64,000 nt of DNA from Sphingomonas psychrotolerans. Its GTDB lineage: Bacteria; Pseudomonadota; Alphaproteobacteria; Sphingomonadales; Sphingomonadaceae. Of this stretch, positions 16,080 through 31,262 are shown piece by piece (position 1 is the stretch's first letter; every line of letters starts with the position of its first letter). The translations under genes were made by a program, and so were the position numbers. A model generated the notes under the pieces. It saw only the letters and a list, made by a program, of their open reading frames with translations, made no database searches and had not been told where the DNA came from. The stretch is from contig NZ_CP024923.1 of the NCBI RefSeq assembly GCF_002796605.1, forward strand, positions 682,001 to 746,000, written 5' to 3'.

Positions 16080-17117
16080 ATGAAGCAAATCGCACTCGCT
16101 TTGATCCTGCTCTCCGTTGCCCCGGCGCGTGCGCAGGAAGTGAGGGTTCCCTCTTTCACGCTGCCTGCATCGAACCAACTGAGTGCGGACGCGATGCTTG
16201 TGCTGGAGCGAATGAAGGCCACGGTCGCGCCGCCGGAGATTGTCGGCGATGTGGCAAGGCAGCGCGCCTTCTATCAGACCTACAATGACGATCGGTTGGC
16301 CGATATGCGGCGTCATTTTCGCACGAGTGAGCGGCACGAGATCGTGGACGGCGTAGCCGTGGACATAGTCGAGCCGGCCGCGGGAATCGCGCCACGCAAT
16401 CGCAGCCGAGTGTTGATCAACGTACATGGTGGCGCGTTCATGTGGGGGGCGGGGAGCGGCGGGCTGGTTGAGGCGATCCCGATCGCGGCGACGATGGGGA
16501 TCAAGGTCGTGACGGTCGACTACCGCCTGGCGCCCGAACATCGTTATCCGGCCGCGTCGGAGGACGTGGCCGCGGTGTATAGGGCGCTGCAAAAAAAATA
16601 TCCGGCGGGGAACATCGGCATCTACGGCTGTTCGGCAGGCGGAGTCATCACCGCGCAGGCAACCGCCTGGATCCGCAGGCAGCGCCTGCCACGCCCCGGC
16701 GCGATCGGCACCTTCTGCGGCACCGGTGCGGCCTATTCGGGCGACAGTCCGTATCTGGCCGGGCCGATCACCGGCGGGGCATCGCTCGCTGCACCGACGC
16801 TCCCACCGACGCTCACCACTAGCTACCTCGCCGGCGTTCCGGCCAACGATGCATATGCTTACCCGCTGCTCTCCGACACGCAGACCGGCGCCATGCCGCC
16901 AACACTGTTGTTGGCGGGCGGCCGCGATTTTGCGGCGAGCACGCTGACTTTAGCGCATAGGCGGCTAGCGCGGCTCGGCGTTGAGAGCGAGCTTTACCTG
17001 TTTGACGGCCTCCCGCACGCATTCTTCGTCTGGCCGGATATGCCTGAGTCAACGGAAGCCTATGCGTTGATCGGTCGCTTCTTCGACCGGCATCTGGGAA
17101 GGAGAATGCGGCGTTAA
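16080..17117 (+). CDS. Secreted alpha/beta hydrolase (HSL-type esterase)
   Basis: A 345-residue esterase. The signal peptide is MKQIALALILLSVAPARAQ, the oxyanion-hole motif HGG is at 116-118, and VDYRLAPEHRYPA is near 147-158. The nucleophile elbow GCSAGG at 183-188 has Ser185, and the catalytic His is in LPHAFFVW near residue 315. This is the hormone-sensitive-lipase/acetyl-hydrolase layout. Placed last in the MFS-trehalase operon, it could strip acyl groups from an acylated sugar in the periplasm. Other esters are possible. Confidence 0.85.
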   Translation: MKQIALALILLSVAPARAQEVRVPSFTLPASNQLSADAMLVLERMKATVAPPEIVGDVARQRAFYQTYNDDRLADMRRHFRTSERHEIVDGVAVDIVEPAAGIAPRNRSRVLINVHGGAFMWGAGSGGLVEAIPIAATMGIKVVTVDYRLAPEHRYPAASEDVAAVYRALQKKYPAGNIGIYGCSAGGVITAQATAWIRRQRLPRPGAIGTFCGTGAAYSGDSPYLAGPITGGASLAAPTLPPTLTTSYLAGVPANDAYAYPLLSDTQTGAMPPTLLLAGGRDFAASTLTLAHRRLARLGVESELYLFDGLPHAFFVWPDMPESTEAYALIGRFFDRHLGRRMRR

Positions 17118-17142
17118 ATCGTTGGCGTAGCGCACCGCTCAA

Positions 17143-17313
17143 GGTCATTGGCGAAATCACGCATTGGACCAGATTGCGCAGGACCGCTCGCTCAATCCGG
17201 AGCTCCACAGGCGCATGTACCGCCGCTCGGGGGCGAAGACGACCGAGATCCCCGGCAGTCACGCCATCTACATTTCTCAGCCCGCCAAGGTCGCAGCCGC
17301 GATCGAGAAGGCA
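17143..17313 (+). pseudogene. C-terminal relic of an alpha/beta hydrolase
   Basis: The reading ALDQIAQDRSLNPELHRRM, then YRRSGAKTTEIPGSHAIYIS and QPAKVAAAIEKAA, matches the C-terminal end of EstC-like alpha/beta hydrolases. In those, an Asp in xDRxxxPE and a His in SHxxYxSxP complete the catalytic triad. The core and the nucleophile are absent, and no ribosome site or proper stop follows. Confidence 0.55.
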
Positions 17314-17499
17314 GCGAACGGCGGGGGCCAGTCTCCGCGCGGGTCCCGGCGCGTCGAGGTCGCAGACACATCAGCTTGCGAACGAGCGACAGATCGAGCG
17401 GCCCGTACCGAGACCTTGGCCACCGTTAGCCGGCGTGCGTCCGACAAGGGCGGCTTCCGCTGGGCTCGCACCTGGAAAGGATGGCAGCGCCACTCGCAC

Positions 17500-17781
17500 T
17501 CACCCGCAAAGCGCTTGCACGACCTTCCCGGCAGGATCGACGGCAATCGTGACGCGGTTTTCCCGAAAATCGTGCGTGACCGCGTCGCCGGGTGCGATCC
17601 GCCGGATCAGCTCCGCGCCGGTGCGCTTCCTGACCTGAGCGTCATCGGGCGCGGCCTGCCCGACCAGCGTCGCCGTCGCCTTGGGGCGGCAGACGTGCAT
17701 CGCTGGGCGGTCCTGGGCGTTCGTCGTGCATGCCCCGACGACTGCGGCGCCACCAACGAGCATGGAAACCATCATTTTCAT
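17500..17781 (-). CDS. I78-family peptidase inhibitor, lipoprotein
   Basis: A 93-residue protein. A short signal peptide with a lipobox (VVGAC, Cys18) precedes a compact domain ending VTHDFRENRVTIAVDPAGKV then VQALCG. This matches the I78 inhibitor family, where the last strand carries DxRxxRLNVxVD and a terminal Cys-Gly. ATG 17781 follows an AGAGGA ribosome site. A near-identical but frameshifted copy lies at 56475-56745. Confidence 0.8.
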   Translation of the reverse strand: MKMMVSMLVGGAAVVGACTTNAQDRPAMHVCRPKATATLVGQAAPDDAQVRKRTGAELIRRIAPGDAVTHDFRENRVTIAVDPAGKVVQALCG

Positions 17782-17915
17782 CTGCGCGATCCTCTTGGAC
17801 CGGCACTATCGCGGCCAACCTGAACATAGACGGAGCAGGTTTGCCGATCCCGTTCACCATCAACCGGGCAAGATGCGTCACGCGGAACTCTCACAGCGTG
17901 CTCGGACGAAATGAC

Positions 17916-18120
17916 CTATCGGCCACGGACGGACGGCTCTCCGGTCGCGAAGGCTTGCGCATGTTGCGGGCGAATCATGTGGTCGCAGTCGGTCTCAGAA
18001 GGGGATGCTACGCGATCGCTCATAATCTGTGCCAACGCCTGGGTTAGTTCCGTCTGTTTGAAGGGCTTGCTCAGACGCGGAAGGTCAGGTGCGACCCGTT
18101 GTAGGAACGGCAGCTATTGC
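17916..18120 (-). pseudogene. C-terminal relic of a response-regulator receiver domain
   Basis: The minus strand reads FLQRVAPDLPRLSKPFKQTE then LTQALAQIMSDRVAS and ends at a TAG at 17916. LSKPF is the conserved Lys-Pro pair of receiver domains, followed by the last helix. The phosphoacceptor part is missing and no start is visible, so it is a fragment. Confidence 0.5.
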
Positions 18121-18133
18121 TAGTTTGTTTCCT

Positions 18134-18168
18134 GGAAAGCTGCCAGACCGCTAGCGGCCCAGCACCGG
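18134..18168. repeat. Dispersed intergenic repeat, diverged copy
   Basis: GGAAAGCTGCCAGACCGCTA followed by GCGGCCCAGCACCGG is related to 47586-47619 and 58766-58799 (shared core GCTAGCGGCCCA). The short string CGGCAGCTAT also precedes it (18110-18119), as it does before the 47.6 kb copy. Confidence 0.4.
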
Positions 18169-18223
18169 TCATTTGCACGGTATGACTAAGGCATCGGCGA
18201 TGAGCCGGAAGCGAGTTCTGCAA

Positions 18224-18247
18224 CGGTCAAATCCTGTCCCCGCAACC
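18224..18247 (+). repeat. tRNA-fMet 3'-end remnant (possible att site)
   Basis: CGGTCAAATCCTGTCCCCGC followed by AACCA closely resembles the T-arm, acceptor strand and CCA of bacterial initiator tRNA (GGTTCAAATCCTGC then CCCCGCAACCA). The 5' part of the tRNA is absent upstream. A strong terminator follows 8 bases later, as expected behind a tRNA gene. It lies 56 bases from the end of the RiPP cluster, so it may mark an integration junction. Confidence 0.5.
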
Positions 18248-18254
18248 AACACAC

Positions 18255-18284
18255 ACCGCCCCGGCACCCGCCGTGGCGGTTTTT
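18255..18284 (+). terminator. Rho-independent terminator
   Basis: Stem ACCGCC / GGCGGT (18255-18260 with 18275-18280) is extended by CGGC / GCCG (18262-18265 with 18270-18273) around the loop ACCC and is followed by TTTT. It faces rightward, opposite to the TfuA gene that ends at 18303. It could be the original terminator of the tRNA-fMet whose 3' end lies just upstream. Confidence 0.7.
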
Positions 18285-18302
18285 GTGCCCCGATCCCACC
18301 GA

Positions 18303-19418
18303 TCAGCACCCAACCCCCGCGCCGCCCGCCCGACGGTACGCCCCCAACGAACGCAATTGATCCGCCATCACCGCGTCAATCTCCTCCCGCATAACAGCCC
18401 GCACCCACAAAAGCCGCGCCTCGTCCGCGGCAAAGCGCAGGAATTGCGCGCGATCCAGATCATTGCTCCGCATCCACGCGTCGAGCGCGTCGGCGTCCCC
18501 CAGCCCCAGCCGTACCCGAATCGACACAATCGCCTCCGCCAGCCTGTCCTCGTCCAGCCTGAAGCTGTGGCGCTGGGCCTGATCGCGCGCGAGGATGCGG
18601 GCCAAGGCGAGGTCGCGCGCCACGGGATCAGCGCCCGGGCCGCTGTCGAGGGCTGCCATCCTGGCGGATCCCTGGAGCGTCGCGGCCCTGCCGTTCCAAT
18701 TCAGCGCCTCCCGGACAAGATCGTCCCAAAGCGCAGTCCGTTCGAACCAAAAGGATCGCTCGCCGGGGTCCCCGGCGCCGAGCGCCTGCTTCATCGTCCG
18801 CAGCATCGACACCGCATCGTCCCGTTTGACGCTCACGCGGTGTGCGGGCCACCATTGCTCGAACGCGGCCAACTCGGCGCCGTCGATCGCGGGCCGCGCT
18901 GCCGCCGCGACCTGCGGGTAGGTGCGATCGCTATAATGCAGCGCCTTGGCGGCGCGGACGAGCGCCTCGCCCGCCACCGCACCTATCGCCTGCGCTTCGA
19001 CCGCACCCGTGATCGTCGCGCGAATGTCTACCAAAGGTTCTGTGACGTGGCGATAGCCCTGTTCCGCTAGCAAATGAGACAGGGCCACTTCGTCGTCGTC
19101 GGCGAGGACGCCGTCGCGATAGGCCTCGAAGACCGACCCGATGCCGACCATGCCGAAGGTCCACAATTCGGCGGCCCGCAACGCCCCCATGCTGGCACTG
19201 CCATAGACGGGAACGCCCACATCCAGCGCCCACAGGATCTCCTTGTGCCAGACGCTTGGCACGCTGTCGAAATGGCCGTCAACGAGGCCGATGGCCGTCG
19301 CACCCTCTCGCACTGCCCTATAGATGTCGCCTTGCACGGCGGGCGAGGCGTAGCGGGCGTCGAGTTCCCGTGTGGCTTCTGCCGCCGGAAGGCTCGGCCC
19401 CAAGAAGACGACGATCAT
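18303..19418 (-). CDS. TfuA-like RiPP protein
   Basis: A 371-residue protein beginning MIVVFLGPSLPAAEA, the typical TfuA start (VxFxGPSL). GATAIGLVDGHFDSVPSVWHKEI is near residues 38-60, followed by VYGSASMGALRAAEL. TfuA partners a YcaO cyclase-like enzyme. In thioviridamide-type peptides and in methyl-coenzyme M reductase, the pair installs backbone thioamides, with TfuA thought to help deliver sulfur. Its ATG overlaps the YcaO stop by 4 bases (ATGA). It is the last gene of the minus-strand RiPP operon. About 200 residues of extra C-terminal helical sequence follow the core TfuA domain. Confidence 0.88.
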   Translation of the reverse strand: MIVVFLGPSLPAAEATRELDARYASPAVQGDIYRAVREGATAIGLVDGHFDSVPSVWHKEILWALDVGVPVYGSASMGALRAAELWTFGMVGIGSVFEAYRDGVLADDDEVALSHLLAEQGYRHVTEPLVDIRATITGAVEAQAIGAVAGEALVRAAKALHYSDRTYPQVAAAARPAIDGAELAAFEQWWPAHRVSVKRDDAVSMLRTMKQALGAGDPGERSFWFERTALWDDLVREALNWNGRAATLQGSARMAALDSGPGADPVARDLALARILARDQAQRHSFRLDEDRLAEAIVSIRVRLGLGDADALDAWMRSNDLDRAQFLRFAADEARLLWVRAVMREEIDAVMADQLRSLGAYRRAGGAGVGC

Positions 19419-20695
19419 GAAACCCGTTCCCGAAGGGCGAGCGCCCGGCTGCCCGGCGCATATTCGGGATCGTCGTCCGGCCCCTCGAGCCCGGGGATCA
19501 CCATGCGCACCACCGGGATCCGATAGCGTGTGCTGGTCAGGTCGACGGCGATCGCTTCATCTATCCCGATGCGCTGGAGGCGTGCGGCGAGATCCGCCAG
19601 ATCCTCGTTGAAGGTGCGGCGCGCGACATCGACAGTCTCACCGGGAAACAGCCTGATGGCCCGGTTCGACGGCGCGTGCCCTGCCGCGACATAATCTCGC
19701 CGGCTGAGATCGTCGCGCGAGCCTGCGATCAGCACCAGCCGGGACTGTACGGCCTCGGTCACTGCGCGCAGCAGGGCGAGGCGCGGCTCGAAATGACAGC
19801 CCAGGCCCGAGAACACCGGCGTTGTCTGCCACGGGCCAACCTCGCGAATTTCGCAAAGATATGCCGGCACGCCGATATCCGAGCCGATGTCATAGACGGT
19901 GGGCAGGACCCCGGCGGCGCGGCAGCGATCGATGGCGTAGCGACACGATGGATCAGCGACGGTATCCAGATCGACGGCGGTGTCCTCCCGATGGGCCTGG
20001 CCGCCTGCGCTCCACAGCGAGGCGGAATCGCGTTCGATCACCTCGAGCGTGGCGTGGACCATCGCCTCGAGCAGGTGATTGCCGGAGGCGAGGCCGTTGG
20101 AGGTTGCCGCGAAGCATCCGCTGCCCGTCGGCGCTTCGCTGAGGGCGCTCGCATGCACCGTCTCGAACGGAAGCCAAGCGGGCTTCCGGCCGATCAGGTC
20201 GAAGCCTTCGATCCAGAGAAGGGGGAGGCTGGGGTGATAGCGGCCGTTGCGCACCCGCGGCAGCCGCGACACGTCGACGATCCGTTTCCCCAAAGCCGAA
20301 AGATCGGCCGCGCTGGCCAGCAGAAGCGGTTGCATCACGCGTTCGCCATGATGCAGCTCGATCGATTCCATCACCCCGGAGACCGTCGCATTGACGAGAT
20401 CAAGCCCCTTGCCCACCGAGGTGGACAGTGATCGCGAGTTCGGCCGGCACACCAGCACCACAGGCAGGCCGATCCGGTCGAGCCCGGTGATGTTGGCGAT
20501 CCGGGTGATGCCCATCGCGCCGAAATGCGGACGTACCGCCGCCAGGGTTTCCTCGGGCGCACGCATGCGCTGCGTCCCCGAGGCGAAATGCTTCTCCACC
20601 TTTGTCGCGAGCAGACCGGTCCAGCCGGCCACGTCCCCGCCACCCAAAGGCGCCGTGCCGAGTTCGAGCTGCGGTTCCGGCTCGAGCAGACTCAC
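19415..20695 (-). CDS. YcaO-family peptide backbone-modifying enzyme
   Basis: A 426-residue YcaO enzyme, which uses ATP to activate a backbone amide. Visible blocks are VNATVSGVMESIELHHGERV (first Glu-rich ATP motif), GLASGNHLLEA then VHATLEVIERDSASLW (second), and LALLRAVTEAVQSRLVLIAG followed by SRDDL (third). The C-terminus PVVRMVIPGLEGPDDD then EYAPGSRAL is the form seen in TfuA-associated YcaOs. The start is GTG 20695, which overlaps the upstream HExxH gene's stop (GTGA); the longer frame runs through that gene and is not coding. With TfuA beside it, thioamidation is more likely than azoline formation. Confidence 0.9.
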   Translation of the reverse strand: MSLLEPEPQLELGTAPLGGGDVAGWTGLLATKVEKHFASGTQRMRAPEETLAAVRPHFGAMGITRIANITGLDRIGLPVVLVCRPNSRSLSTSVGKGLDLVNATVSGVMESIELHHGERVMQPLLLASAADLSALGKRIVDVSRLPRVRNGRYHPSLPLLWIEGFDLIGRKPAWLPFETVHASALSEAPTGSGCFAATSNGLASGNHLLEAMVHATLEVIERDSASLWSAGGQAHREDTAVDLDTVADPSCRYAIDRCRAAGVLPTVYDIGSDIGVPAYLCEIREVGPWQTTPVFSGLGCHFEPRLALLRAVTEAVQSRLVLIAGSRDDLSRRDYVAAGHAPSNRAIRLFPGETVDVARRTFNEDLADLAARLQRIGIDEAIAVDLTSTRYRIPVVRMVIPGLEGPDDDPEYAPGSRALALRERVS

Positions 20696-21843
20696 AATGC
20701 GTCTCGAACCCGGCCTTGCAACGTGTCGATGGTGTCGAGCACCTCGGAATTGATGTGCTCCGCAAAAGGGCGCACCTGGTCGAGAACATGGCCCTTGAGA
20801 AAACCGCGCAGCGCTTGCTCGAGGCGTGCCCTGGCGCGCTCGGCCTCGAAGGTGCCGCGCGCAAAGGCCTGCGCCCAGAACATGGCGAGGCCATACCAGA
20901 CGAAGCAGGCCTGCAGGTATGAGCGGAGCGGCAGGGGATTTCCTGTCCATTCGGATCGGGTCCGAAGTTCCGGACCATAGACTTCCTCGTTATTGACCCA
21001 CGGCTCAAGTCGTTCGCTCATGTACAGCAGCGAGTGAATCGCCTCGTGCACCAGCCCCTCGGCCAGCAAGGCGGAGTCGACCTTGGACAAATGCGGGTTT
21101 CCCATGACCGAGCGGCCGACATATTGTGCGGACGAGCCGGTCGAGAAGAGGTCGGGCGCCTGCGGATCCTGCTGCAGGACGAGCGACTTGGTGAATGCCT
21201 CGACGAAGCCGGCGATGCGGGGATTGGTGGTGACCAGCCTTTCCCGGACGTCCGAAAGCAGCGAGAGAATCTGCCGGGTCTCGGCGGACGGATAGGGAGA
21301 TCGCGGCACGTCAACTTCGTCGATCTCACCGTCGATGTCGATGGCGAGTGCGTGCGGACTGAAAAAATCGAGCGGCGGCAGACCGGGCAGCGCCGGACCG
21401 GCCACGAAGCCGCCGTCGGGCCCGAGCCAGCCGTCGCCGACGGCGGACCAGAGCGTCTGCGGCGGTGGCGAGAAGGCTTTATCGGTTGCAGCACCGGCGT
21501 TGGCGCGCGCCTTTTCGACGGCGAGCGCCGCGCCGAGCGCGTCGGCGATATCGGCCGCCGAATGGCGCGAGGGCCAGAGAAGCCGGTAGGTGATCCGCGG
21601 TGCGGTGACGAGCCTCAACCAGTTCTGGTCCGGCAGCGTGTCGAGCGCGCCGCGGAGTCTGTCTGCCACAGGCTTGGGGACCTGGGCCAGCGCCACGCCC
21701 AGCTGATCTGCCAGAAACAGCACATAGTCACGATGGATCTGCGCCCCGCTGGCACCGTTCCAGTCGAGCACTTCCGCCGCCTGATAGATCCGGTTCGCGT
21801 CGGGCATGGCGCCGACCGGAAGATCGAGGCGGGGCGCAGTCAT
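20692..21843 (-). CDS. HExxH RiPP-modification protein 1
   Basis: A 383-residue protein with HEAIH at about residues 266-270 (GLVHEAIHSLLYM). It also has QYVGRSVMGNP about 25 residues before, and SEWTGNPLPLRSYLQACFVW after it. These blocks align with the paralogue at 23024-24181 (RYVGRSILWNP, MIHEGLHTVF, SPWTGRPLDVPTYVHAFLVW). The pattern resembles the HExxH domain found with radical SAM FxsB-type proteins, members of which are now annotated as alpha-ketoglutarate-dependent peptide beta-hydroxylases. A peptidase role is the alternative. The start overlaps the radical SAM stop by 4 bases and the end overlaps the YcaO start by 4. Confidence 0.75.
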   Translation of the reverse strand: MTAPRLDLPVGAMPDANRIYQAAEVLDWNGASGAQIHRDYVLFLADQLGVALAQVPKPVADRLRGALDTLPDQNWLRLVTAPRITYRLLWPSRHSAADIADALGAALAVEKARANAGAATDKAFSPPPQTLWSAVGDGWLGPDGGFVAGPALPGLPPLDFFSPHALAIDIDGEIDEVDVPRSPYPSAETRQILSLLSDVRERLVTTNPRIAGFVEAFTKSLVLQQDPQAPDLFSTGSSAQYVGRSVMGNPHLSKVDSALLAEGLVHEAIHSLLYMSERLEPWVNNEEVYGPELRTRSEWTGNPLPLRSYLQACFVWYGLAMFWAQAFARGTFEAERARARLEQALRGFLKGHVLDQVRPFAEHINSEVLDTIDTLQGRVRDAL

Positions 21844-23024
21844 GCCGGAACGCCTTCTGTGTCCACCGAAAGGCTGTCGAGCGCCTCGCGCCGCAACAGG
21901 GTCTCGGCGGGCGGCACCCCGAGGCGGCTGCGCAGATGATCGAACAGCCGGAGTATGTCCGCGCACCATGCCGAGGGGTGATCGAAGCCGCCGTCGGACG
22001 CGAAGCGATGGGGGAGATAGCCGCCTGCGCAGGTACTGCGCTCGCGGCAGGTCCGGCATCCCCGGGGCAGCGACAGCCCTTCGAAGATCACTTGGTAATG
22101 GAATTTGCAATGGTCCTCCATGTCGGAGAAGTCGTGGTTACGCACGTTCATGCCGGTTCGTGCCAGACCCGGGCCGCAGGTCCGCAGCACGTCCAGGCCT
22201 TCTATTGCCCCATCGGGCTCCACGAAGAGATAGCCCAGTGGATTGTTGCCGATGAAATCGACTTCGCAGACCCCTCCGAGAATGGCCCTGACGATCGCCA
22301 TGAAGGGACCCACCCGGACCTTCATGTCGCCGCTCCCCCACCATTGCTCGAAGATCGGGATCAGGAAATCAGCGCCCGGCGTCGGGCCATGACGGGCGCG
22401 GAGGGCGCCGATCGTGTCGTGCGTCTGATCGGGGAAAAGATATTCGATCTGCGCCGGGCCGAGCGAGAGCAGATGCCGGTGGGTGGCGACCGGATCGCTT
22501 CCCAGCGAGATGACGCTCAGCAGCGAGAACCCGACGGCGTTCCTGCGCAGCGCCTCCACGCCGCGCAGCACCCCGCTATACGATCCTCTTCCCTTGTGAT
22601 CGACGCGCTGCGCATCGTGCACATCGGGCGTGCCGTCGATGCTGATGCCCACTACGATCTTGTGGGCGGCGAACAGTTCGGCCCATTTGTCGTCGATGAG
22701 CACGCCGTTCGTCTGGAGTGCGAGCCGGACCTCGACGCTGTCGTCGAGGCTTCGCAGCTTTCGGCACCAGCAATCGAAGCGTTCATGGCCGACCAGTAGC
22801 GGCTCTCCGCCGTGAAAGACGATCCGCAGCAGACGCTGGCCTGATTTCGCGCAATGTCGGCGTAGCGCGGCGACGCTGGCGTCGATCACCTCGTCGGAAA
22901 TCATCGCCGGCTGACGGCGCCAGGAATCGTCGAGCTTGTTGTAGACATAGCAATAGCTGCAATTGAGATTGCAACGCGAAGCGATCTTGAACGTGACGCT
23001 GAGCGGAGAATGCGCGTTTCGCAT
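21840..23024 (-). CDS. Radical SAM/SPASM peptide maturase (FxsB-like)
   Basis: A 394-residue enzyme. The radical SAM cluster motif CNLNCSYCYVYN has Cys18, Cys22 and Cys25. FHGGEPLLVG and LQTNGVLID follow, and a C-terminal SPASM region contains CRTCRERSTCAGGYLPHRF and a final AWCADI. The CYVYN string and CxGGYxPHR are typical of the FxsB/XyeB/GrrM group, several of which cross-link aromatic side chains in RiPPs. The start ATG 23024 shares one base with the stop of HExxH protein 2. The reading frame extends upstream to 23231, but that part is inside the HExxH gene. Full-length FxsB proteins often carry a fused HExxH-like domain, which here is on separate neighbouring genes. Confidence 0.88.
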   Translation of the reverse strand: MRNAHSPLSVTFKIASRCNLNCSYCYVYNKLDDSWRRQPAMISDEVIDASVAALRRHCAKSGQRLLRIVFHGGEPLLVGHERFDCWCRKLRSLDDSVEVRLALQTNGVLIDDKWAELFAAHKIVVGISIDGTPDVHDAQRVDHKGRGSYSGVLRGVEALRRNAVGFSLLSVISLGSDPVATHRHLLSLGPAQIEYLFPDQTHDTIGALRARHGPTPGADFLIPIFEQWWGSGDMKVRVGPFMAIVRAILGGVCEVDFIGNNPLGYLFVEPDGAIEGLDVLRTCGPGLARTGMNVRNHDFSDMEDHCKFHYQVIFEGLSLPRGCRTCRERSTCAGGYLPHRFASDGGFDHPSAWCADILRLFDHLRSRLGVPPAETLLRREALDSLSVDTEGVPA

Positions 23025-24181
23025 CACCGTTCGCCCGCGAGGTGCCTGAACGCCTGGCTGGCCTGTTCCTCGAGCTGGCGCATCAGGTCCTTCACGTCGG
23101 AGCGGATTCGTCCGGCAAAGGGCTCGAGCGGCGTGAAGGCGGTGCGCGTCGCGAACGGCGCGCCGGCGCGCAGCAGGCGCCCCCGGGCGATCGGGGGCTC
23201 GAACGTTCCCCGGCTCGCCACTTTCGCCCATAAGGTGAGCAGCCCGAACCAGACCAGGAAAGCGTGGACATAGGTCGGGACGTCGAGCGGCCTGCCGGTC
23301 CAGGGAGAGATCGTGCGGGACACGCCGTCGTAGAGCATTGGTTCCGTCACCCAGCGGGCCCGGGGAGGCGTCACCCGCGACAGCAGGGCATCGGCCATAT
23401 CGAACACGGTGTGCAGGCCTTCGTGGATCATGGCTTCGGCAAGGGCGTCGGTGCCGACCGCCGGATCGTCCGGATTCCAGAGGATTGAGCGGCCGACATA
23501 GCGCTCGGGAGAACTAGACTGGAACCCCTGCCGCGACGCGACGCGACGCAGCACCAGCGTCGTGTTCCAGTCTCGCGCGAAATCCGCCAACCGTGGGTCG
23601 GTAGCACGTAAATGTTCCTGTGCTTCCTGCAGTTGCTCCACCAGCGCCGGAAGCGTCGGCCATGGTTCCGGCGGGTCACCGGAGGTCGGCGCGGAGGGCA
23701 GCCTTGTCGCCGGATCCCCGATCACCAGCCGCGGCAGGTCTCCGCACCCCGCCGTATATGGGGCGGGAGACAGGCAGTGACGGTCGCCCATCGCGCTCCA
23801 GACGACCTCGTCGAGTTGGTGATCGAGTCCGGAGAAGGCGCGCTCGACCTCCACCGCGCGCACGAAGAAACGGGCGCTCTCCTCCCGGTCCGCTTTCTCC
23901 CCGCTGCGCCACAGCAGTCGCCGGATCGATTCCGGGGCGAGAAGGATCCGGCAGAGCGCTTCGACCGGCAGGTCCGAAACCCGGGACTGAAGCCGTTCGC
24001 CCGCCTCGGGATCTGCCAGAGTGAACGCGCCGATCCAGGCCCCCCAGCGTTCCGACACCAACAGTACGAAGCGGCTGCGCAGCGACTCCAGCGCTGTTCC
24101 GGAAGAAAAGCCGAGCACCTCGGGCAGCCATGTTTCCGCTGCGGTTTCGGATTCGATCGGTGATGTCGTCTCAATCGGCAT
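23024..24181 (-). CDS. HExxH RiPP-modification protein 2
   Basis: A 385-residue paralogue of the protein at 20692-21843. HEGLH is at about 253-257 (AMIHEGLHTVFDM), RYVGRSILWNPDDP lies upstream of it, and SPWTGRPLDVPTYVHAFLVW then FGLLTLWAKVASRGTFE downstream. The N-terminal third (LPEVLGFSSGTALESLRSRF) resembles the aggregate start of family members where no known motif is seen. It may hydroxylate or otherwise modify the peptide. The start overlaps the end of HExxH protein 3 by 11 bases, and the stop shares one base with the radical SAM start. Confidence 0.75.
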   Translation of the reverse strand: MPIETTSPIESETAAETWLPEVLGFSSGTALESLRSRFVLLVSERWGAWIGAFTLADPEAGERLQSRVSDLPVEALCRILLAPESIRRLLWRSGEKADREESARFFVRAVEVERAFSGLDHQLDEVVWSAMGDRHCLSPAPYTAGCGDLPRLVIGDPATRLPSAPTSGDPPEPWPTLPALVEQLQEAQEHLRATDPRLADFARDWNTTLVLRRVASRQGFQSSSPERYVGRSILWNPDDPAVGTDALAEAMIHEGLHTVFDMADALLSRVTPPRARWVTEPMLYDGVSRTISPWTGRPLDVPTYVHAFLVWFGLLTLWAKVASRGTFEPPIARGRLLRAGAPFATRTAFTPLEPFAGRIRSDVKDLMRQLEEQASQAFRHLAGER

Positions 24182-25235
24182 AGGCCACCACGCGCGCTGT
24201 CGTTGTATCGAGCAGTTCGCGGCCCAAGTCCGTCAGTGCCGAGCGCGCACGGTTGAGAGTGGCGCAGGCATCGTCGCGAAGCGCGCGGGTTTGCATCTGG
24301 AGTTGCCGCTGTTTCTCGCCCGCACCGAGCGCGCGGAACCAGTCATGATAGAAGGCGGTCATGAAGGCGAGCGCGTGAAACGCCAGGAAGATGCCCCGCA
24401 GCGGCCGGGGATCCTGCCGTAGCGGAGATGCATAGCTCGCATAGTGGGACGGATCGACGAGCGGGCCCTCGGCCTCGGCGATGATCAGCCAGTGATGCGC
24501 TGATTCGTGCACGAGCGTCTCGAGTATCTGTTCGTGCGGTCCCTCCAGATCGCTGAACACGAGGCCGGGGAGGGAGGCGCAGGAGCCGGACCGGAAGCGC
24601 TGGCCGCCGCAGCTGTAGAGTGGCACCACGACCTTGGTCGAGTGGCGCACCCAATCCGCGCAGGTAGGGAGATGCCGGTGGAGGCGTGCGCCGGCCTCAA
24701 GGAATGTCACCAGTCCCCGGCGGAGCCGTTGCTCATCCTCCGCGGTCAGCGGCTGGCGGTGGGGCCAGCCCCATTCGGGCGTGTTCACCACCCCTTCGTC
24801 CAGCGGCAGGCCGACGCTGTCGCACCAGGGATCGAGCTCCACCAGGCGTTCGAACTCGTCGGGCGGCGAGCATATCTGCTCCGCCAGACCGCAAAGTGCG
24901 TAGCGGCCAGGGTCGAGCGAAGCGCCTCCTTCCGGACCCCAGATCCATTCGGGAGTCTCCAGCGTCACCTCGCCGAGATCGTCTTCCATATTTGCCGCCG
25001 CCCACACGGCAAGCCTCAGGTCGCGGCCGATCGTGGGGCGCGACATCACCGCGCATGCCACGGGGTGATAGAGCCAGGGCGCCTCCGCCACCGCCGCCGC
25101 GACCAGCCGGTCACGGACCGACGGAGACAGGCCCAATGAGCGCTCCGGAGCCCAGTTTTCAAGGCGCGAAGCGCTCAGCGCGTACCAATGTCGAGGCGAG
25201 ATCCGCCAAGACCAGGGATTGTCTGCCGCGCACAT
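24171..25235 (-). CDS. HExxH RiPP-modification protein 3
   Basis: A 354-residue, more divergent member. HESAH is at about 243-247 (TLVHESAHHWLIIAEAEGP), preceded by RFRSGSCASLPGLVFSDLEG and followed by PLRQDPRPLRGIFLAFHALAFM. The layout, with the motif near residue 245, an Arg-Pro segment 30 residues later and then a helix with FxAFHA, matches alpha-ketoglutarate HExxH-type hydroxylase families better than metalloproteases. It starts 13 bases after the candidate precursor, and its stop is inside the next gene's start. It lacks the YVGRS block shared by the other two, so it probably acts at a different site. Confidence 0.72.
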   Translation of the reverse strand: MCAADNPWSWRISPRHWYALSASRLENWAPERSLGLSPSVRDRLVAAAVAEAPWLYHPVACAVMSRPTIGRDLRLAVWAAANMEDDLGEVTLETPEWIWGPEGGASLDPGRYALCGLAEQICSPPDEFERLVELDPWCDSVGLPLDEGVVNTPEWGWPHRQPLTAEDEQRLRRGLVTFLEAGARLHRHLPTCADWVRHSTKVVVPLYSCGGQRFRSGSCASLPGLVFSDLEGPHEQILETLVHESAHHWLIIAEAEGPLVDPSHYASYASPLRQDPRPLRGIFLAFHALAFMTAFYHDWFRALGAGEKQRQLQMQTRALRDDACATLNRARSALTDLGRELLDTTTARVVAYAD

Positions 25236-25248
25236 GAGGGCGAGCGAT

Positions 25249-25569
25249 TTACTTGGTCGAGGACGGTTTCATCTTGCGAAGCGTCGACAGCCGGTCGGCG
25301 AAGCGCGAAAAGGCCGCATCGTCGAGCGACTCGACATTCCGAAGTAGCGCGCGATCAAGGTCGACCACCGGATTGACGCGATCCCTCAGAGCATCGGTGG
25401 TCTTCGATCGGCTGAAGAAGAATCCCTTCGATCGCGAATGTGCCATCAGCTCGTCGCCGCTAAGACCGGTGGCGGCACGAGCAAGTTCGCTCTCAATCGC
25501 CCGCTTCATCGCATCTTCCACGCGCGAACGCGCCTCGGGACTCAGCTTGGAGAGTTCGCTTTCTTCCAC
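25249..25569 (-). CDS. Candidate RiPP precursor peptide
   Basis: A 106-residue hydrophilic protein without signal peptide. The N-terminal half is strongly helical and charged (SKLSPEARSRVEDAMKRAIE), then comes SRSKGFFFSRSKTTDALRDR, and the tail is DAAFSRFADRLSTLRKMK with a Pro-Ser-Ser-Thr-Lys end. The start is GTG at 25569 behind a perfect AAGGAGG ribosome site. It is the first gene of the minus-strand operon of modifying enzymes, the usual precursor position. No Cys is present, so a thioamide rather than an azoline fits. Possible modified motifs are Phe-Phe-Phe-Ser-Arg and Phe-Ser-Arg-Phe-Ala-Asp. It has no recognised family and could instead be a small accessory or regulatory protein. Confidence 0.6.
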   Translation of the reverse strand: MEESELSKLSPEARSRVEDAMKRAIESELARAATGLSGDELMAHSRSKGFFFSRSKTTDALRDRVNPVVDLDRALLRNVESLDDAAFSRFADRLSTLRKMKPSSTK

Positions 25570-25674
25570 GATAGCCTCCTTGTTTTCAGTGCCATTGCTT
25601 GCACGACTCGCATACTACATGAAATGTTGGTAAAATCTAGATTGATATGTCATCTGATTGTATGGAACTATGTT
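25570..25674. promoter_or_regulatory. Divergent promoter region of the RiPP cluster
   Basis: The stretch between the precursor candidate and the methyltransferase is clearly AT-richer than its surroundings (for example ATCTAGATTGATATGTCATC), as expected for a bidirectional promoter. TTGCTTGCACGACTC and TACTACATGAAATG resemble weak -35/-10 parts, but no spacing can be asserted. Confidence 0.45.
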
Positions 25675-27162
25675 ATGTTGCGCAGCAACGTGTCTCAACG
25701 CGCAGAGAAATTGGAATTAATCCAAAAGTTATTTTGGGAATGCGATTTTTCGACTCAGGTGCTGAATGGAAGGTTGCCGGAAGACTGGCTCCAACTTGCG
25801 GATTATCAGGAGTGGGCGCCGGTTCTCTACTATCTTAATAAGAATTTACCGACAGACCTTCTGCTCATCCTGTTCGTTCTTGGGCGGGCTTGTCCGGCCG
25901 ATGTCGCTCGGGGCGTCTTTGGCGCCGAAACCGTGTCTGCATTGGAAGAGATGGGGTTCGTGGAGGACTCCGGCCCGGATTTGCTACCTGCGGTTATGGT
26001 GCAGTCCTACGGGGACCTGCTCGTCGCCTCCGATCATCGGCGGCGGCGGAACGAGAGCGACTATGTCATGGGGCTGAGCGGCCCTACCCGCGCCCTTGCG
26101 GATCTGACGATCCGGAAACCGGCCTCGCTGGCGGTCGATATCGGCTGCGGCAGCGGGCTGCAGGCCTTGCTGGCATCGCGGCATAGCGCGCGAGTGCTTG
26201 CCTGCGACGTGAATCCGAGAGCGCTCGATTTCGCGCGCCTGAACGCGCAACTGAACGGAATCGCCAATATCGACGTGGCCGAAGCCGACCTATTCGATTT
26301 CGCGCTCGATCGCCCGGCGGAGTTGGTGGTTTGCAATCCGCCCTATGTGATCTCGCCCGACCATTCGCAGGCGTATCGGGACAGCGGCCGGGAAGAGGAT
26401 GGCGTCTGCGCGCATCTGGCCGGACTGCTGCCCAGACTTCTGAGCATGGGCGGAACCGCACAATTCCTGGCCAATTGGGCGGTTCACAAGGGCGGTACAT
26501 GGCCGCAGCGGCTCGGACAGTGGTTCGCCGGCAGCGGATGCCATGTTTCCATCCTGCACGAAGTGACCGAATCTCCCGCCGACTACACGATCAAATGGCT
26601 CCGTCAGAGCGATCCCCATGCGCTCGCCGCGGACCAGCCCGCCTTTGCCCGCTGGATGGGCTATTTCGACCGGCGGGAAATAAGCGGGATCGCCTATGGC
26701 CTGGTCACGATCCAGCGGACTGGAGGCGCCGCGAGCTTCGCGATCGACGAGGCGCCCGATCACTATATCATGCCGTGCGGGGACGCGCTGGCGGCCTTTC
26801 TCGCGAGGAAGCGCCGGCTGCGGGCGCTCGACGGGGACCTTCTGGACCTGCGCCTGCGCCGCGCATCGAACATGCGGCTGGTGCAATCCGCGCATTTCCA
26901 CAACGGCCAGTGGATCGCCGGCCAGGTCCGGGCGAGCCTAGCCGACGGGCTTCGCTGGAGCGAGGATCTCGGTCCGGAATCCGCGCGGCTGTTCGAACTC
27001 ATCGACGGCCAAAAGACCCTCGGCGCCCTGCTCGGCGACATTCTCGAGGAAGAAGACCCGCCAGCAGCTCGCACTCTTTTCCGGACCGTGGTGACGGCAA
27101 TCGAAAAGGGATTGCTGACCATCGCCGATACGGCGTGGGACGAAGAGAATGAAATGCCGTGA
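25675..27162 (+). CDS. Methyltransferase with PqqD/RRE-like C-terminus
   Basis: A 495-residue class I SAM methyltransferase. An N-terminal helical region (1-145) is followed by VDIGCGSGLQALL at 154-166 (SAM binding) and VVCNPPYVI at 218-226. NPPY is the catalytic motif of N-methylating PrmC-like enzymes. The final 80 residues (ARLFELIDGQKTLGALLGDI, then RTLFRTVVTAIEKGLLTI) look like a PqqD winged helix, the fold that binds RiPP leaders. Start ATG 25675 was chosen; an in-frame ATG at 25624 is possible. It is divergent from the precursor operon, so it probably methylates the peptide, though a separate housekeeping target cannot be excluded. Confidence 0.75.
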   Translation: MLRSNVSQRAEKLELIQKLFWECDFSTQVLNGRLPEDWLQLADYQEWAPVLYYLNKNLPTDLLLILFVLGRACPADVARGVFGAETVSALEEMGFVEDSGPDLLPAVMVQSYGDLLVASDHRRRRNESDYVMGLSGPTRALADLTIRKPASLAVDIGCGSGLQALLASRHSARVLACDVNPRALDFARLNAQLNGIANIDVAEADLFDFALDRPAELVVCNPPYVISPDHSQAYRDSGREEDGVCAHLAGLLPRLLSMGGTAQFLANWAVHKGGTWPQRLGQWFAGSGCHVSILHEVTESPADYTIKWLRQSDPHALAADQPAFARWMGYFDRREISGIAYGLVTIQRTGGAASFAIDEAPDHYIMPCGDALAAFLARKRRLRALDGDLLDLRLRRASNMRLVQSAHFHNGQWIAGQVRASLADGLRWSEDLGPESARLFELIDGQKTLGALLGDILEEEDPPAARTLFRTVVTAIEKGLLTIADTAWDEENEMP

Positions 27163-27651
27163 GCCGGACTCAGTGCAGCTATTTGTGCGCAGCGAGCGCC
27201 GCATGGTTGTTAGCAGTCTGATGGCTCGCAACCGATCGTTGCGCGGGGCGGTCGAACGGCTGCGGAAATCGTGAACGCAGGGGATGGAAGGGAATTTCTA
27301 TCGGTTCTCCGGAACTGCTGCGCGGCGGTCTGGACTAAGCTCTCCGGTATTGGAGAACCCGTCTTGAGAACCGGTAGAATGCGGACCCAAGAATGCGCGT
27401 GAGCAGGCTGCCTCAGCTTGTGAGAGGCTAGACCTTATGGTTCGAGCGACGTGTCCGTCGCACCGATGACAGATTCGTGCTCCGGGTAGAATTCGACAGC
27501 AGTTATAATGCACATGACTCATCATAACTTCGGACGATCTCGTACCTTAGCGCAGATGTCTGTTTGATCCGGAGCGCCTGCGATCGCAGCGTTTTTTGGT
27601 AAGGGTTGCTTAGCGTCCAATACCCAGATCGGGACGGGGGCGATATGGGCG
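27163..27651. other. Intergenic, no gene recognised
   Basis: Between the methyltransferase and the SIR2 relic no reading frame shows a domain or ribosome site. Weak complementary pieces (CTCTCCGGTATTGGAGAACC, then GAACCGGTAG, 27341-27376) may form a hairpin, but with no T-run. The lower GC content in places suggests decayed sequence. Confidence 0.35.
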
Positions 27652-27866
27652 TTATAGATAGCCCAACCAGGATTCACCGAGCTTGTCGTAAACATCGGTG
27701 GTGAGGTTGTAGAATGATGGAAACCGTAGCGCTGTGAAATGCCGGCGCCGCAAAGGAACACCACCTCGCCCTTCTCTTGAAGCGCTATAAGACGGTCAGG
27801 AATATCGGCGGTATCGTCCGTGAAGCGCATAGAGACGACAATCGCTTCGGTCTCTTGGTGTTGCAA
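27652..27866 (-). pseudogene. SIR2-family N-terminal relic, frameshifted
   Basis: One frame reads MRFTDDTADIPDRLIALQEK then GEVVFLCGAGISQ, the SIR2 start in which GAGIS binds NAD. The next frame continues FPSFYNLTTDVYDKLGESWL, the usual downstream block, to a TAA at 27652. The frame switch near 27725-27735 and the missing C-terminal part mean the gene is dead. The bare DIPxxL...GxVVFLCGAG form is common in stand-alone SIR2 proteins, some of which belong to phage-defence systems. Confidence 0.6.
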
Positions 27867-27957
27867 GCCACTCTTCGCTAATTGAAAGTATGAACGCGCG
27901 GACCTGGCGAGACGAACGTCGCCGCGACGTCCGGCTCGCCGGGGTCCGCTACAACCC

Positions 27958-30921
27958 TCAGAACCGCAGGCTGCCGCCCACCAGGATCGTGCGTCCGCTT
28001 GCCGTGTTGGTCATCATCCGCTCGGCATCCTTGTCGGCATATTGCACGATCGGCTCGTTGCCGATGTTGATCGCTTCCACCGTCAGCTGGAAGCGCGGGG
28101 TGACGTTGAAATAGGCCGAAGCATCGAAGTTTGCGGTGCCTTTGATATATTCACCGATATTGCCGTTGCCGCCGCTGCCCCAGCGATACTTGCTGCGCAT
28201 CGCAGCCGATGCGCGCACGCCCCATTTGCCCGTGTCGTAATAGACGGTCGCGTTCGAAGACAGCTTCGAAAGATTGGTCAGCGGAAGCTTCACGGCCTTG
28301 CCCGAAAAGAGCACGTCGGTGGAGCCGTCGGCGATCGTGACATTGCCGAGCATCCCCAGGCGATCGAACGGCGCGGGCAGGAAATCGAAATCGCGCTTGG
28401 CGGCCAGTTCGATACCCTTGATCGACGCGCCTGCCCCGTTCACCGGCCGGGTATAGTTGAACAGGATCGCCGGATCCTGGCCCGGCAGCAGCAGCGATAT
28501 CGGGAATCCCGTGCTGTTGTACGGCACCGGCGTGGTCTCTGCGGTGATGAACGACTTCATGTTCTTGTAGAACAGGCCGAGCGCCAGAAAACCGCGGGTC
28601 CCATCATAATATTCGAGCGAGGTCTCGACCGAATCGGCGAGGAAGGGTGCCAGATTGGGGTTGCCGGCGCTGATCGTGCCGCCGAACGCAGCGACGTTGA
28701 TCGTCGCCGCCGCGCGCATGTCGGCAAGCGCAGGGCGGTTGACGTTGCGATTGGCGCTCAATCGCAGCACCAGCGAGCGATCGAGATCGAAGGCGATATT
28801 GGCCGCGGGCAGGAAGCCATCATAGCTGTTGGTGATGGCGACCGGCGTCAGCGTTGTCCCGGTCAGCGCCGTACCCACCGAATCGAGCGTGGTGCGGTAA
28901 TAGCGTACCCCGAGATCGGCGCGGACGCCAACGCTGCCGAGCGTCGTCTTGAGATCGTATTGGAGATAGCCGGTGAAAGTCTTCTCGCGCAATTCATAGT
29001 CGCCGCCAGCAATGTTATTGCTGGCGTTGACGTTACCGCCGAGCCCGAGCACCTTGAAGGTCCCGGCGATGTCGGCGATGATATAGGGCGCCAGGCTGTC
29101 ATATGGGACGATCTTGGTCGGCACGGTCGGCAACCCCGCCAGGCCGTCATAATTGAAGACCACCCGGCGCTGCCAGCCGTCATTCTCGAAACGCTTGTAC
29201 GCGGCGCCGGCCTTGAGCGTCGAACCCTCGGCGACGCGCCAGGCCAATTCGGCCTTGGCATTGTAGAATTCGCTGCCGATGTGATCGTCGCGGCTTTCCG
29301 CGCCGTTCAGGCCCCATTTGGTGGGATCGGTAACATCGAAGCCATAGCTGTTTCTGGGGTTGGCGGTGTTCATCCCGGAAAAGCTGTAACTTTGGCCGAC
29401 CGATTCCAGATACACCTGATCATAGCTGGAGCCGAAGGACGATTTCGACCAGCCGGCGAGGACCGTCCCGCTGAGATTGTCGGTGAAATCGGTGCGGCCG
29501 TTAAGCGCGACCTGCCAGAAATCGGTCTGGTCGACAGTCCGGCGGGTCTCGGTGCGCATGTCGACGCCGCTGAATGACGCGCCAACGATGCTGTTGAAGC
29601 TGTCGAGCGTGACATCGGTCAACACCTGCGTGCCGGTGACGTTATTGGCCGAGACGCCGTTGGTGCCGGCAGCGCCCAGCACATCGGTTTCGCGATTGTT
29701 GGTGAGTTTGCCGTACAGGACGTCGAGCGTCACGTCGGTGCGTTCGTCGGGATGATATTGCAGCGCCGCGGTCACCCCCAGGCGTTCGCGCTTGTTGAAC
29801 CAGCTCGCATAGGTCTGCGCGCGGCTGTTCCACACGCGATTGGCGCCGGTGGCGCCCACCAGCAGGGCGCGGTCGGGGGCGGAGATGTTGGACCCGACAT
29901 TGGCGGCACCGAAATTGATCTGCGACCAGTTCCAGTTACGATAGCCGAATTCGATCGTGTCCGCGGTGCTGTACGCCACCGACACCAAGGCGCCAAAATC
30001 GCCCCAGCGATTTGAGATCAGGCCGACCAGCCGCGGCGTCACCGTCTCGCTATATTGGTTGCTCTGGGCCTTGGCCGAGACCACCGCGGTCAACCCGCCA
30101 AAGTCGAACGGCTTCGCCGTGTGGAGGCCGATCGTGCCGCCGATCCCGCCTTCGTCCTGCTCGGCAGCATAGGATTTTTCGACGGTGACCTCGTTGAACA
30201 GCTCGGACGCGAAAATGCTGTAGTCGAACGAACGCGAGCGGCTGATGCTGCTGCGGCTGTCGAGGCCCGACGAGGTGTTGGTGAGCACTTCCATGCCGTT
30301 GAGCTGGGTCCGGGTGAAATCGGCGCCGAGGCCGCGCAGCGAGATCTGGCGCCCCTCGCCGCTGTCGCGAGTGATCGCGACGCCAGGGACGCGCTGAAGC
30401 GATTCGGCCAGATTCTGGTCGGGGAACGCCGCGATGTCCTGCGCCACGATCACTTCGCGCGATCCGGTGGCCGCCTTTTTAAGTTGCGCGGCGCGCGAAA
30501 GGCTCTCGCGATAGCCCGAGACCACGATCTCCTCGCTGTCCAGCTCGTCGACCGACGCCGGATCGGCCGCATCTGCAACCGTGTTGTGGCCTTGGCGCTC
30601 GAGGATCACCGTATCGCCGATAATGCGGCCGCCGACCGCGCTTCCCGCGGTTAGCTGGCGCAGCGCTTCTTGGGCATCCATCCTGCCGCGGAGTCGATTG
30701 CTGCGCAGGCCGTTCAACATCGCGGGGGAGGTGGCCACCTGCAGCCCGGTAACGCGCGAGAAGGCGAGCAAGGCCTCGCTCATCGCCTGTGGCGGCAGGT
30801 TGAAATCAAACTGACGCCTCGGTGCCGCCGCAGCCTGCGCCATCGATGGCGACCAGGCGACGCTCGACAACGCCACCGAGCAGAACAGCAATTGCGAAAT
30901 GCGACCTGTATATATCATCAT
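27958..30921 (-). CDS. TonB-dependent receptor with STN signalling domain
   Basis: A 987-residue FecA-type transducer. After a signal peptide, residues about 38-112 form an STN (secretin/TonB short N-terminal) domain (FDFNLPPQAMSEALLAFSRV, then GRMDAQEALRQLTAG). The TonB box SEEIVVSGYRESLSRA follows at about 128-143, then a plug and a long barrel ending GRTILVGGSLRF. The STN domain passes a signal to a FecR-type anti-sigma factor, and such a gene together with its ECF sigma lies divergently 340 bases away. Together with the PhoD-like phosphatase next door, the ligand may be a phosphate ester, but this is inferred from context only. Confidence 0.88.
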   Translation of the reverse strand: MMIYTGRISQLLFCSVALSSVAWSPSMAQAAAAPRRQFDFNLPPQAMSEALLAFSRVTGLQVATSPAMLNGLRSNRLRGRMDAQEALRQLTAGSAVGGRIIGDTVILERQGHNTVADAADPASVDELDSEEIVVSGYRESLSRAAQLKKAATGSREVIVAQDIAAFPDQNLAESLQRVPGVAITRDSGEGRQISLRGLGADFTRTQLNGMEVLTNTSSGLDSRSSISRSRSFDYSIFASELFNEVTVEKSYAAEQDEGGIGGTIGLHTAKPFDFGGLTAVVSAKAQSNQYSETVTPRLVGLISNRWGDFGALVSVAYSTADTIEFGYRNWNWSQINFGAANVGSNISAPDRALLVGATGANRVWNSRAQTYASWFNKRERLGVTAALQYHPDERTDVTLDVLYGKLTNNRETDVLGAAGTNGVSANNVTGTQVLTDVTLDSFNSIVGASFSGVDMRTETRRTVDQTDFWQVALNGRTDFTDNLSGTVLAGWSKSSFGSSYDQVYLESVGQSYSFSGMNTANPRNSYGFDVTDPTKWGLNGAESRDDHIGSEFYNAKAELAWRVAEGSTLKAGAAYKRFENDGWQRRVVFNYDGLAGLPTVPTKIVPYDSLAPYIIADIAGTFKVLGLGGNVNASNNIAGGDYELREKTFTGYLQYDLKTTLGSVGVRADLGVRYYRTTLDSVGTALTGTTLTPVAITNSYDGFLPAANIAFDLDRSLVLRLSANRNVNRPALADMRAAATINVAAFGGTISAGNPNLAPFLADSVETSLEYYDGTRGFLALGLFYKNMKSFITAETTPVPYNSTGFPISLLLPGQDPAILFNYTRPVNGAGASIKGIELAAKRDFDFLPAPFDRLGMLGNVTIADGSTDVLFSGKAVKLPLTNLSKLSSNATVYYDTGKWGVRASAAMRSKYRWGSGGNGNIGEYIKGTANFDASAYFNVTPRFQLTVEAINIGNEPIVQYADKDAERMMTNTASGRTILVGGSLRF

Positions 30922-31262
30922 AACCCCCGAGTTTGTCCGTTTCGGAGGGCATGACGGGCGCGGCGAACGAAACCCGACAAAAAAAGTTCAGTCTTTTTTA
31001 AAGTCTGAATTGTTTCGGAATTGCTACAAAATTGATTATCGAATATATGGCATCATTTAACCGCATTATAATTTTATAAATTAGATTAATTTCTGTAGAT
31101 ACGGAGGATGGCTGTTCCAAACTATTTTGGGCCATCTGGCCATTTGCTAGATAAACCTAAATTTTATTGAATTGCAGGCCTTCGCAAGGATCGGCCGGAC
31201 GGCTCTGCCAAATTGTCACAATGCGATCATAGACGCGCCGCACGACCAATGCGGGATAGCGC
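30922..31262. promoter_or_regulatory. AT-rich divergent regulatory region
   Basis: Bases 30980-31170 are strikingly AT-rich for this genome (for example TTATAATTTTATAAATTAGA). They separate the TonB receptor from the divergent ECF sigma gene. This is the expected place for the sigma-dependent promoter of the receptor and the autoregulated sigma operon. No gene is present. Confidence 0.55.

Follow-up and report, generated by a model that had tools for sequence, protein, structure and literature searches.

A conserved Sphingomonas gene block with the make-up of a hybrid thioamide and cyclophane peptide-modification cluster

Described classes of thioamide-containing ribosomally synthesised and post-translationally modified peptides (RiPPs) include the thioviridamide-like compounds, thiovarsolins, thiopeptides, chimeric lanthipeptides and the std cluster, and a YcaO–TfuA pair is known to thioamidate asparagine within a multi-enzyme pathway (PMC13174530). 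Radical S-adenosylmethionine (SAM)/SPASM proteins accompanied by YcaO–TfuA have been predicted in some actinobacterial clusters, in a paper whose main text makes no mention of HEXXH, FxsB or Sphingo (PMC8120280), and engineering has yielded thioamidated forms of cross-linked peptides (PMC12951456). Enzymes of the alpha-ketoglutarate (alphaKG)-HExxH family also act on RiPP precursors: a radical SAM-fused HExxH protein hydroxylates aspartate and histidine in dependence on a preinstalled cyclophane (work cited in PMC12636437), PflC and PosC hydroxylate glutamine and cut the backbone oxidatively (PMC12636437), and another HExxH enzyme hydroxylates proline (PMC13060819). The subject of the present work is a stretch of 64,000 nucleotides of Sphingomonas psychrotolerans contig NZ_CP024923.1 (the window), in which the region 18303–27162 encodes YcaO, TfuA, a radical SAM/SPASM protein, three alphaKG-HExxH proteins (HExA, HExB and HExC), a 106-aa open reading frame (ORF) and a divergent methyltransferase. 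To our knowledge, none of the thioamide classes named above has alphaKG-HExxH enzymes together with a cyclophane-forming radical SAM enzyme. With a probability of roughly two in three, the gene content is best read as that of a hybrid RiPP cluster in which the 106-aa protein is the precursor of a thioamidated, cyclophane-bearing, oxidised and probably N-methylated product. The enzyme families are known and their combination is apparently new: the cluster had been called undescribed in an earlier sequence-based annotation (the original prediction), which holds to the extent that the combination was not found in the open-access literature searched, a result that falls short of proof of absence, and no paper in that literature was found to bring together Sphingomonas, YcaO and TfuA.

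The run of overlapping minus-strand genes with a divergent methyltransferase described in the original prediction is present. In order of transcription the minus-strand genes are the 106-aa ORF, HExC, HExB, radical SAM, HExA, YcaO and TfuA; five overlaps, of 11, 1, 4, 4 and 4 nt, link the six enzyme genes, a gap of 13 nt separates the end of the 106-aa ORF from HExC, and the paralogues HExA and HExB flank the radical SAM gene. Pfam and NCBIfam domain searches were conducted on the longest ORFs, which very likely begin upstream of the true start in the case of YcaO, radical SAM, HExA and the methyltransferase. A contig scan with YcaO as the single query, which is sensitive only to close relatives, yielded six of them; one, S. 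pituitosa NBRC 102491 (locus L018), carries the eight genes in identical order. Alignment of the block (18293–27122) with this locus gave 85.4% DNA identity over 8,841 alignment columns, with similarity ending at both edges; outside the block, blastn produced one 53-nt match, between the L018 flank and window positions 5574–5626. Since the block is kept in S. pituitosa with unrelated flanks, it constitutes one discrete unit, which is probably mobile. Ratios of non-synonymous to synonymous substitution rates (dN/dS), calculated by the NG86 method against L018, were 0.24 for TfuA, 0.19 for YcaO, 0.18 for HExA, 0.16 for radical SAM, 0.26 for HExB, 0.18 for HExC, 0.08 for the 106-aa ORF and 0.29 for the methyltransferase; all eight genes are under purifying selection. 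Conservation of the unit and these ratios (0.08–0.29) confirm that the gene set is real as opposed to a product of chance, and, together with the domain content, uphold the proposal of a discrete RiPP-type modification set whose members co-occur elsewhere, with different flanks, although the genes have been found together in just two species.

The adjacent YcaO and TfuA proteins score well above their Pfam cut-offs (232.6 against 25.7 bits and 151.5 against 30 bits, respectively), and no ThiF-type azoline partner was found by Pfam among the eight proteins; an adjacent YcaO–TfuA pair lacking an azoline partner is what the locus shares with thioamidated RiPPs. The closest solved relative of YcaO is MJ1094 (6pe3; E 6e-32). 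YcaO exceeds the cut-off of the general model TIGR00702, and its best NCBIfam match is TIGR03266, for McrA-glycine thioamidation. In TfuA the PF07812 domain spans residues 47–166 and is followed by a C-terminal extension. On these comparisons both proteins appear related to the McrA-glycine thioamidation enzymes without being those enzymes, because they miss the equivalog cut-offs of TIGR03266 (191 against 365 bits) and NF033432 (208.7 against 235.2 bits). Among other loci, two (L015:11194-14645 and L016:1917-5327) encode YcaO, TfuA, a 432-aa HEIGH protein and then a protein of approximately 200 aa with terminal ASVRG repeats that might be a multicore precursor of a thioamide.

The radical SAM protein has the cysteines expected of a SPASM protein, with Cys 18, 22 and 25 plus 283, 323, 326, 332 and 354 common to all four aligned homologues, and its closest solved relative is the radical SAM domain of ChlB (9gm3; E 6e-53). 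Enzymes of the FxsB/YhhB clade that form cyclophanes do so by linking an aromatic residue with one that lies two places further along the peptide. The FxsB and YhhB maturases provide the best NCBIfam matches, under both curated cut-offs (292.3 against 370 bits for TIGR04269 and 294.7 against 445 bits for NF041707), and therefore the earlier label of 'FxsB-like' is retained for the clade and withdrawn for family membership. An annotated YhhA/YhhB cyclophane pair, with a YhhB of 711 aa, was observed near a Piwi-domain gene and integrases on Novosphingobium plasmid pLA4 (L075:2184-8115); YhhA is annotated there with 60 aa, against 106 aa for the precursor proposed here.

Assignment of the three HExxH proteins to the alphaKG-HExxH family stands. 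HExA and HExC exceed the curated cut-off of TIGR04267 (40 bits), and HExB is borderline, at 38.8 bits in one search and 40.2 in another; HExA and HExB are 30% identical. The ten aligned sequences, which comprise the three proteins and seven relatives, all retain H266, E267 and H270 (HExA numbering). A profile of eight of the aligned sequences, excluding two HExC rows, matched ChlH (8s5f), a characterised alphaKG-HExxH enzyme, at E 1.1e-10, the sole PDB match to E 0.1. Used singly, HExA matched the same structure at E 0.0027, HExB gave no relevant PDB match, and HExC matched 22nu (a chain named as radical SAM; E 2e-5) and ChlH (E 0.003). A peptidase identity, which the original prediction had named as one of two findings that would speak against it, is rejected on account of the lack of any Pfam peptidase match and the relevant PDB relatives being ChlH and 22nu. 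The family name predicts oxidation rather than an exact site or product, because relatives hydroxylate aspartate, histidine, glutamine or proline, or cut the backbone oxidatively. Both enzyme families are thus shared with the fused radical SAM–alphaKG-HExxH proteins ChlB/ChlBH (9gm3, 8s5f); here, in contrast, they are encoded by separate overlapping genes and joined by two more HExxH proteins, YcaO–TfuA and a methyltransferase. The pfl/pos and biphenomycin clusters likewise combine an alphaKG-HExxH enzyme with a RiPP precursor, but additionally use multinuclear non-haem iron-dependent oxidative (MNIO) enzymes (PMC12636437, PMC12257519), none of which was found in the present cluster.

The candidate precursor is a short protein beside modifying enzymes and is kept with them in L018, where it is 88–89% identical and conserved across most of its length. 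Relative to L018, residues 39–61 differ by ten synonymous and no non-synonymous codon changes; the corresponding counts are 11 and 7 for residues 1–38, 10 and 2 for residues 62–95, and 4 and 2 for residues 96–103. Residues 39–95 (57 of 103 codons) therefore hold two of the 11 amino-acid changes, a distribution with a chance probability of 0.010, for boundaries picked post hoc. The precursor is the lowest of the eight genes in both dN (0.063) and dN/dS (0.081). Its core is likely to lie inside residues 39–95, to judge from this pattern, a region that contains aHSRSKgf, fFSRSKtt and aFSRfa, with sites at H44-S-R, F52-S-R and F87-S-R. Outside the two Sphingomonas species, six weak matches among the 295 genomes of the genus searched (E 0.002–0.01) were treated as chance, five lying in ORFs of 481–1187 aa and one containing internal stops, and no match was found in the plasmids or phages searched.

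The closest solved relatives of the methyltransferase are gentamicin methyltransferase chains, e.g. 5u4t (E 4e-17), and its NPPY motif is typical of N-methyltransferases. The proposal that it is RRE-like (RRE, RiPP recognition element) is not supported. DUF7059 and DUF7782 matches are under cut-off, the likeness of the C-terminus to DUF7782 being weak (20.9 bits against a cut-off of 27); the C-terminus has no RRE or PqqD match in Pfam and no PDB relative by sequence to E 10, and its structural model is of low confidence, too poor to use (predicted local distance difference test, pLDDT, 48). A profile of this C-terminus was found in one of 299 phylum genomes, the window's own. A relative of the methyltransferase on a Tsukamurella plasmid adjoins genes for DUF3039 and DUF3099 proteins, and the annotation of that stretch includes no RiPP gene.

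From these assignments we infer the identity of the precursor, the position of its core, each reaction, the order of reactions and the placement of all modifications on one peptide; as reactions, thioamidation, cross-linking, oxidation and methylation are likely. Precursor residues 1 to approximately 38 would form a helical leader, with the modified stretch inside 39–95. The radical SAM enzyme may form cyclophanes by bonding the side chain of an aromatic or histidine residue to the beta-carbon of another residue close by, the three [H/F]-S-R sites being possible locations. HExA, as its overlapping partner, would then perform beta-hydroxylation close to the ring, in the manner of fused ChlB-type proteins. 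HExB and HExC could oxidise further positions, YcaO–TfuA would exchange backbone oxygen for sulphur, and the NPPY methyltransferase might N-methylate a side chain or terminus. Release would fall to host enzymes or to an oxidative cut by an HExxH enzyme, as the block encodes neither protease nor exporter.

Several observations weigh against this scheme. The radical SAM, YcaO and TfuA proteins are each under the NCBIfam cut-off of their own best-scoring model, the block encodes no transporter, protease or recognisable RRE, and the 106-aa ORF matches no family above cut-off and is known from two sequences in this analysis. Its dN is barely under those of YcaO (0.066) and radical SAM (0.067), and its dN/dS is low mainly because dS is 0.78, approximately 2-fold that of the other genes (0.35–0.45). 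The change-free segment 39–61 (none of 11 changes) has a chance probability of 0.05, again for boundaries picked post hoc. At least three copies of [HFWY]SR arose in a fraction of 0.0001 of 20,000 shuffles, for a motif picked after the sequence had been viewed, and the SRSK repeat by itself is unremarkable, a repeat of at least four residues arising in 19% of shuffles. The AlphaFold model of the precursor is too weak to use (mean pLDDT 52, lowest at residues 44–80), and the low values fit an unfolded core while proving nothing.

It is conceivable, if unlikely, that the target of the enzymes is a larger host protein, as McrA is for YcaO–TfuA, the 106-aa protein serving as an adaptor or discrete recognition protein. 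The fact that TIGR03266 and NF033432, both models for McrA-glycine thioamidation, give YcaO and TfuA their best scores, the lack of an exporter or protease in the block and conservation along most of the 106-aa protein would all fit such an arrangement. However, the domain searches gave no recognition-domain match in the 106-aa ORF, radical SAM–HExxH relatives adjoin multicore precursor-like proteins, and the block is present in only two of 295 genus genomes, unlike what is expected for modification of a universal protein. The latter figure derives from strong precursor matches (genomes G000 and G385), the window's own genome being included here and in each of the counts that follow; G385, in which the same block lies at locus L047, is taken to be the same genome as L018. 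TfuA was found in 11 of 296 genomes of the order and TIGR04267 in 17 of 396 (12 above cut-off). Only G000 appears in both scans; G385 appears in that for TIGR04267 and is unlisted in that for TfuA, presumably not having been among the genomes drawn. HExA used alone matched four of 385 genomes of the class, two of these matches being weak and partial (E ~1e-6, residues 85–173), and the HExA/HExB profile matched four of 299 genomes of the phylum, one weakly (5.6e-6).

The relationship between the two enzyme modules was examined in 27 neighbourhood loci scanned with profiles built in this analysis. YcaO and/or TfuA without a radical SAM or HExxH match were detected in ten loci (L015, L016, L017, L019, L057, L058, L059, L060, L062 and L065), and radical SAM and/or HExxH without a YcaO or TfuA match in fifteen (L048–L051, L053–L056, L061, L063, L064, L071, L072, L081 and L082). 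One locus, L052, had neither module, and L018 was the sole locus with both, as well as the only one to match the methyltransferase profile. Loci entered the sample through one of the two modules, and a number of the contigs are short; the scan is accordingly evidence of modularity and not an estimate of frequency. The nearest plasmid relatives of the radical SAM protein are from Rhizobium lusitanum (50% identity) and R. ruizarguesonis (46%), and the 4-nt overlap between radical SAM and HExxH genes is kept in L018 and in the Rhizobium plasmid loci L064 and L071. In the latter two a repetitive protein is encoded upstream of the pair, with 13 (L064) and eight (L071) copies of HxQ[TN]HS, which suggests that the radical SAM–HExxH pair has peptide substrates. 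These loci differ from the Sphingomonas cluster in their multicore HxQ[TN]HS substrate and trypsin-like protein, and YcaO, TfuA, a second or third HExxH gene and a cluster-type methyltransferase were undetected within them. The arrangement of pair, repeat protein and trypsin-like protein (L064:5208-10718 and L071:6742-11543, the trypsin-like assignment in L064 resting on weak, sub-cut-off Pfam matches) resembles a multicore RiPP system, and the plasmids are typed as conjugative.

Separation of the modules in relatives, with both found only in L018 among the 27 loci, would also be expected of two independent RiPP modules lying side by side, with radical SAM–HExxH acting on the 106-aa protein and YcaO–TfuA on something else. 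We regard this as rather improbable, given that the six overlapping enzyme genes form one run, the order is kept and the block has moved whole. Moreover, there is little space for a second precursor because the non-genic part of the block is confined to gaps of 13 and approximately 105 nt, although the ORF list covers those of 60 aa or more.

That one HExxH protein cleaves the peptide oxidatively in place of a protease, freeing an internal core with a C-terminal amide, has in its favour the oxidative cuts made by PflC and PosC (PMC12636437), the three HExxH proteins, the missing protease and the probably internal core, but is held to be very doubtful, since the precursor lacks an ARMD motif and the HExxH protein of the pfl-like locus L082 (which encodes GNAT, HExxH and 650-aa proteins) is only weakly like HExA and HExB (28–32% over 120–155 residues). 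The 650-aa protein is presumed to be an MNIO fusion. An extended form of the hybrid cluster, i.e. a new RiPP class with an internal core that is thioamidated and cross-linked, receives three hydroxylations, each from a different alphaKG-HExxH enzyme, is N-methylated and is cut oxidatively by an HExxH enzyme, with no protease, from a leader–core–follower precursor, would be a long shot on present evidence.

The cluster is compact and conserved. Its operon-like run includes three divergent alphaKG-HExxH enzymes and unites two peptide-modifying systems that occur separately elsewhere among the loci compared. As such it offers a test case for how enzymes with oxidative, radical and ATP-dependent chemistry share one precursor and for the ability of HExxH enzymes to substitute for a protease, while the split radical SAM and HExxH genes provide a natural comparison for fused ChlB-type enzymes. 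The features are collected in Table 1.

Table 1. Coordinates of the genes and intergenic region of the block, with the supporting match or signal
Feature	Position in window	Strand	Basis
TfuA, 371 aa, predicted YcaO partner for backbone thioamidation	18303..19418	-	PF07812, 151.5 bits
YcaO, 426 aa, GTG start, 4-nt overlap with HExA	19415..20695	-	PF02624, 232.6 bits
HExA, alphaKG-HExxH, 383 aa, HEAIH motif, predicted radical SAM partner	20692..21843	-	TIGR04267, 61.2 bits
Radical SAM/SPASM, 394 aa, predicted cyclophane-forming	21840..23024	-	PF04055, 56.4 bits; CxxxCxxC
HExB, alphaKG-HExxH, 385 aa, HEGLH motif, HExA paralogue	23024..24181	-	TIGR04267, 38.8 / 40.2 bits
HExC, alphaKG-HExxH of a more distant subfamily, 354 aa, HESAH motif	24171..25235	-	TIGR04267, 89.3 bits
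Candidate precursor, 106 aa, GTG start	25249..25569	-	AAGGAGG Shine-Dalgarno just upstream
Divergent intergenic region, precursor / methyltransferase	25570..25674	.	sequence
Class I methyltransferase, 495 aa, start codon uncertain	~25675..27162	+	PF05175, 46.1 bits; NPPY motif

A single, weak sigma-70-like site was detected on the minus strand at 25698–25670, against 0.3 expected, reaching into the first codons of the methyltransferase. No RNA element was found at gathering threshold in 17500–31500 and no tRNA within the window, and DNA repeats in 17100–28000 were, among the matches listed, weak and scattered only. Genes for a TonB-dependent receptor, an extracytoplasmic function (ECF) sigma factor and FecR adjoin the cluster at 27958–32764; these were ruled out as part of it because the S. 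pituitosa block stops at the methyltransferase and the L018 flanks examined contain no such match. Just beyond the cluster on the minus strand, a short, apparently broken ORF with FLCGAGIS (27522–27866) presumably resembles the start of a SIR2-type protein, and, on the other side, we take a 93-aa minus-strand ORF (17500–17781) to resemble an I78-type peptidase inhibitor. Lastly, a plasmid of Rhizobium etli IE4803 (L063:7243-12545) encodes, in a row, a 77-aa protein, a radical SAM protein of another subfamily (TIGR04463-like, under cut-off), an HExxH protein, an annotated JmjC-domain protein and a GNAT protein.

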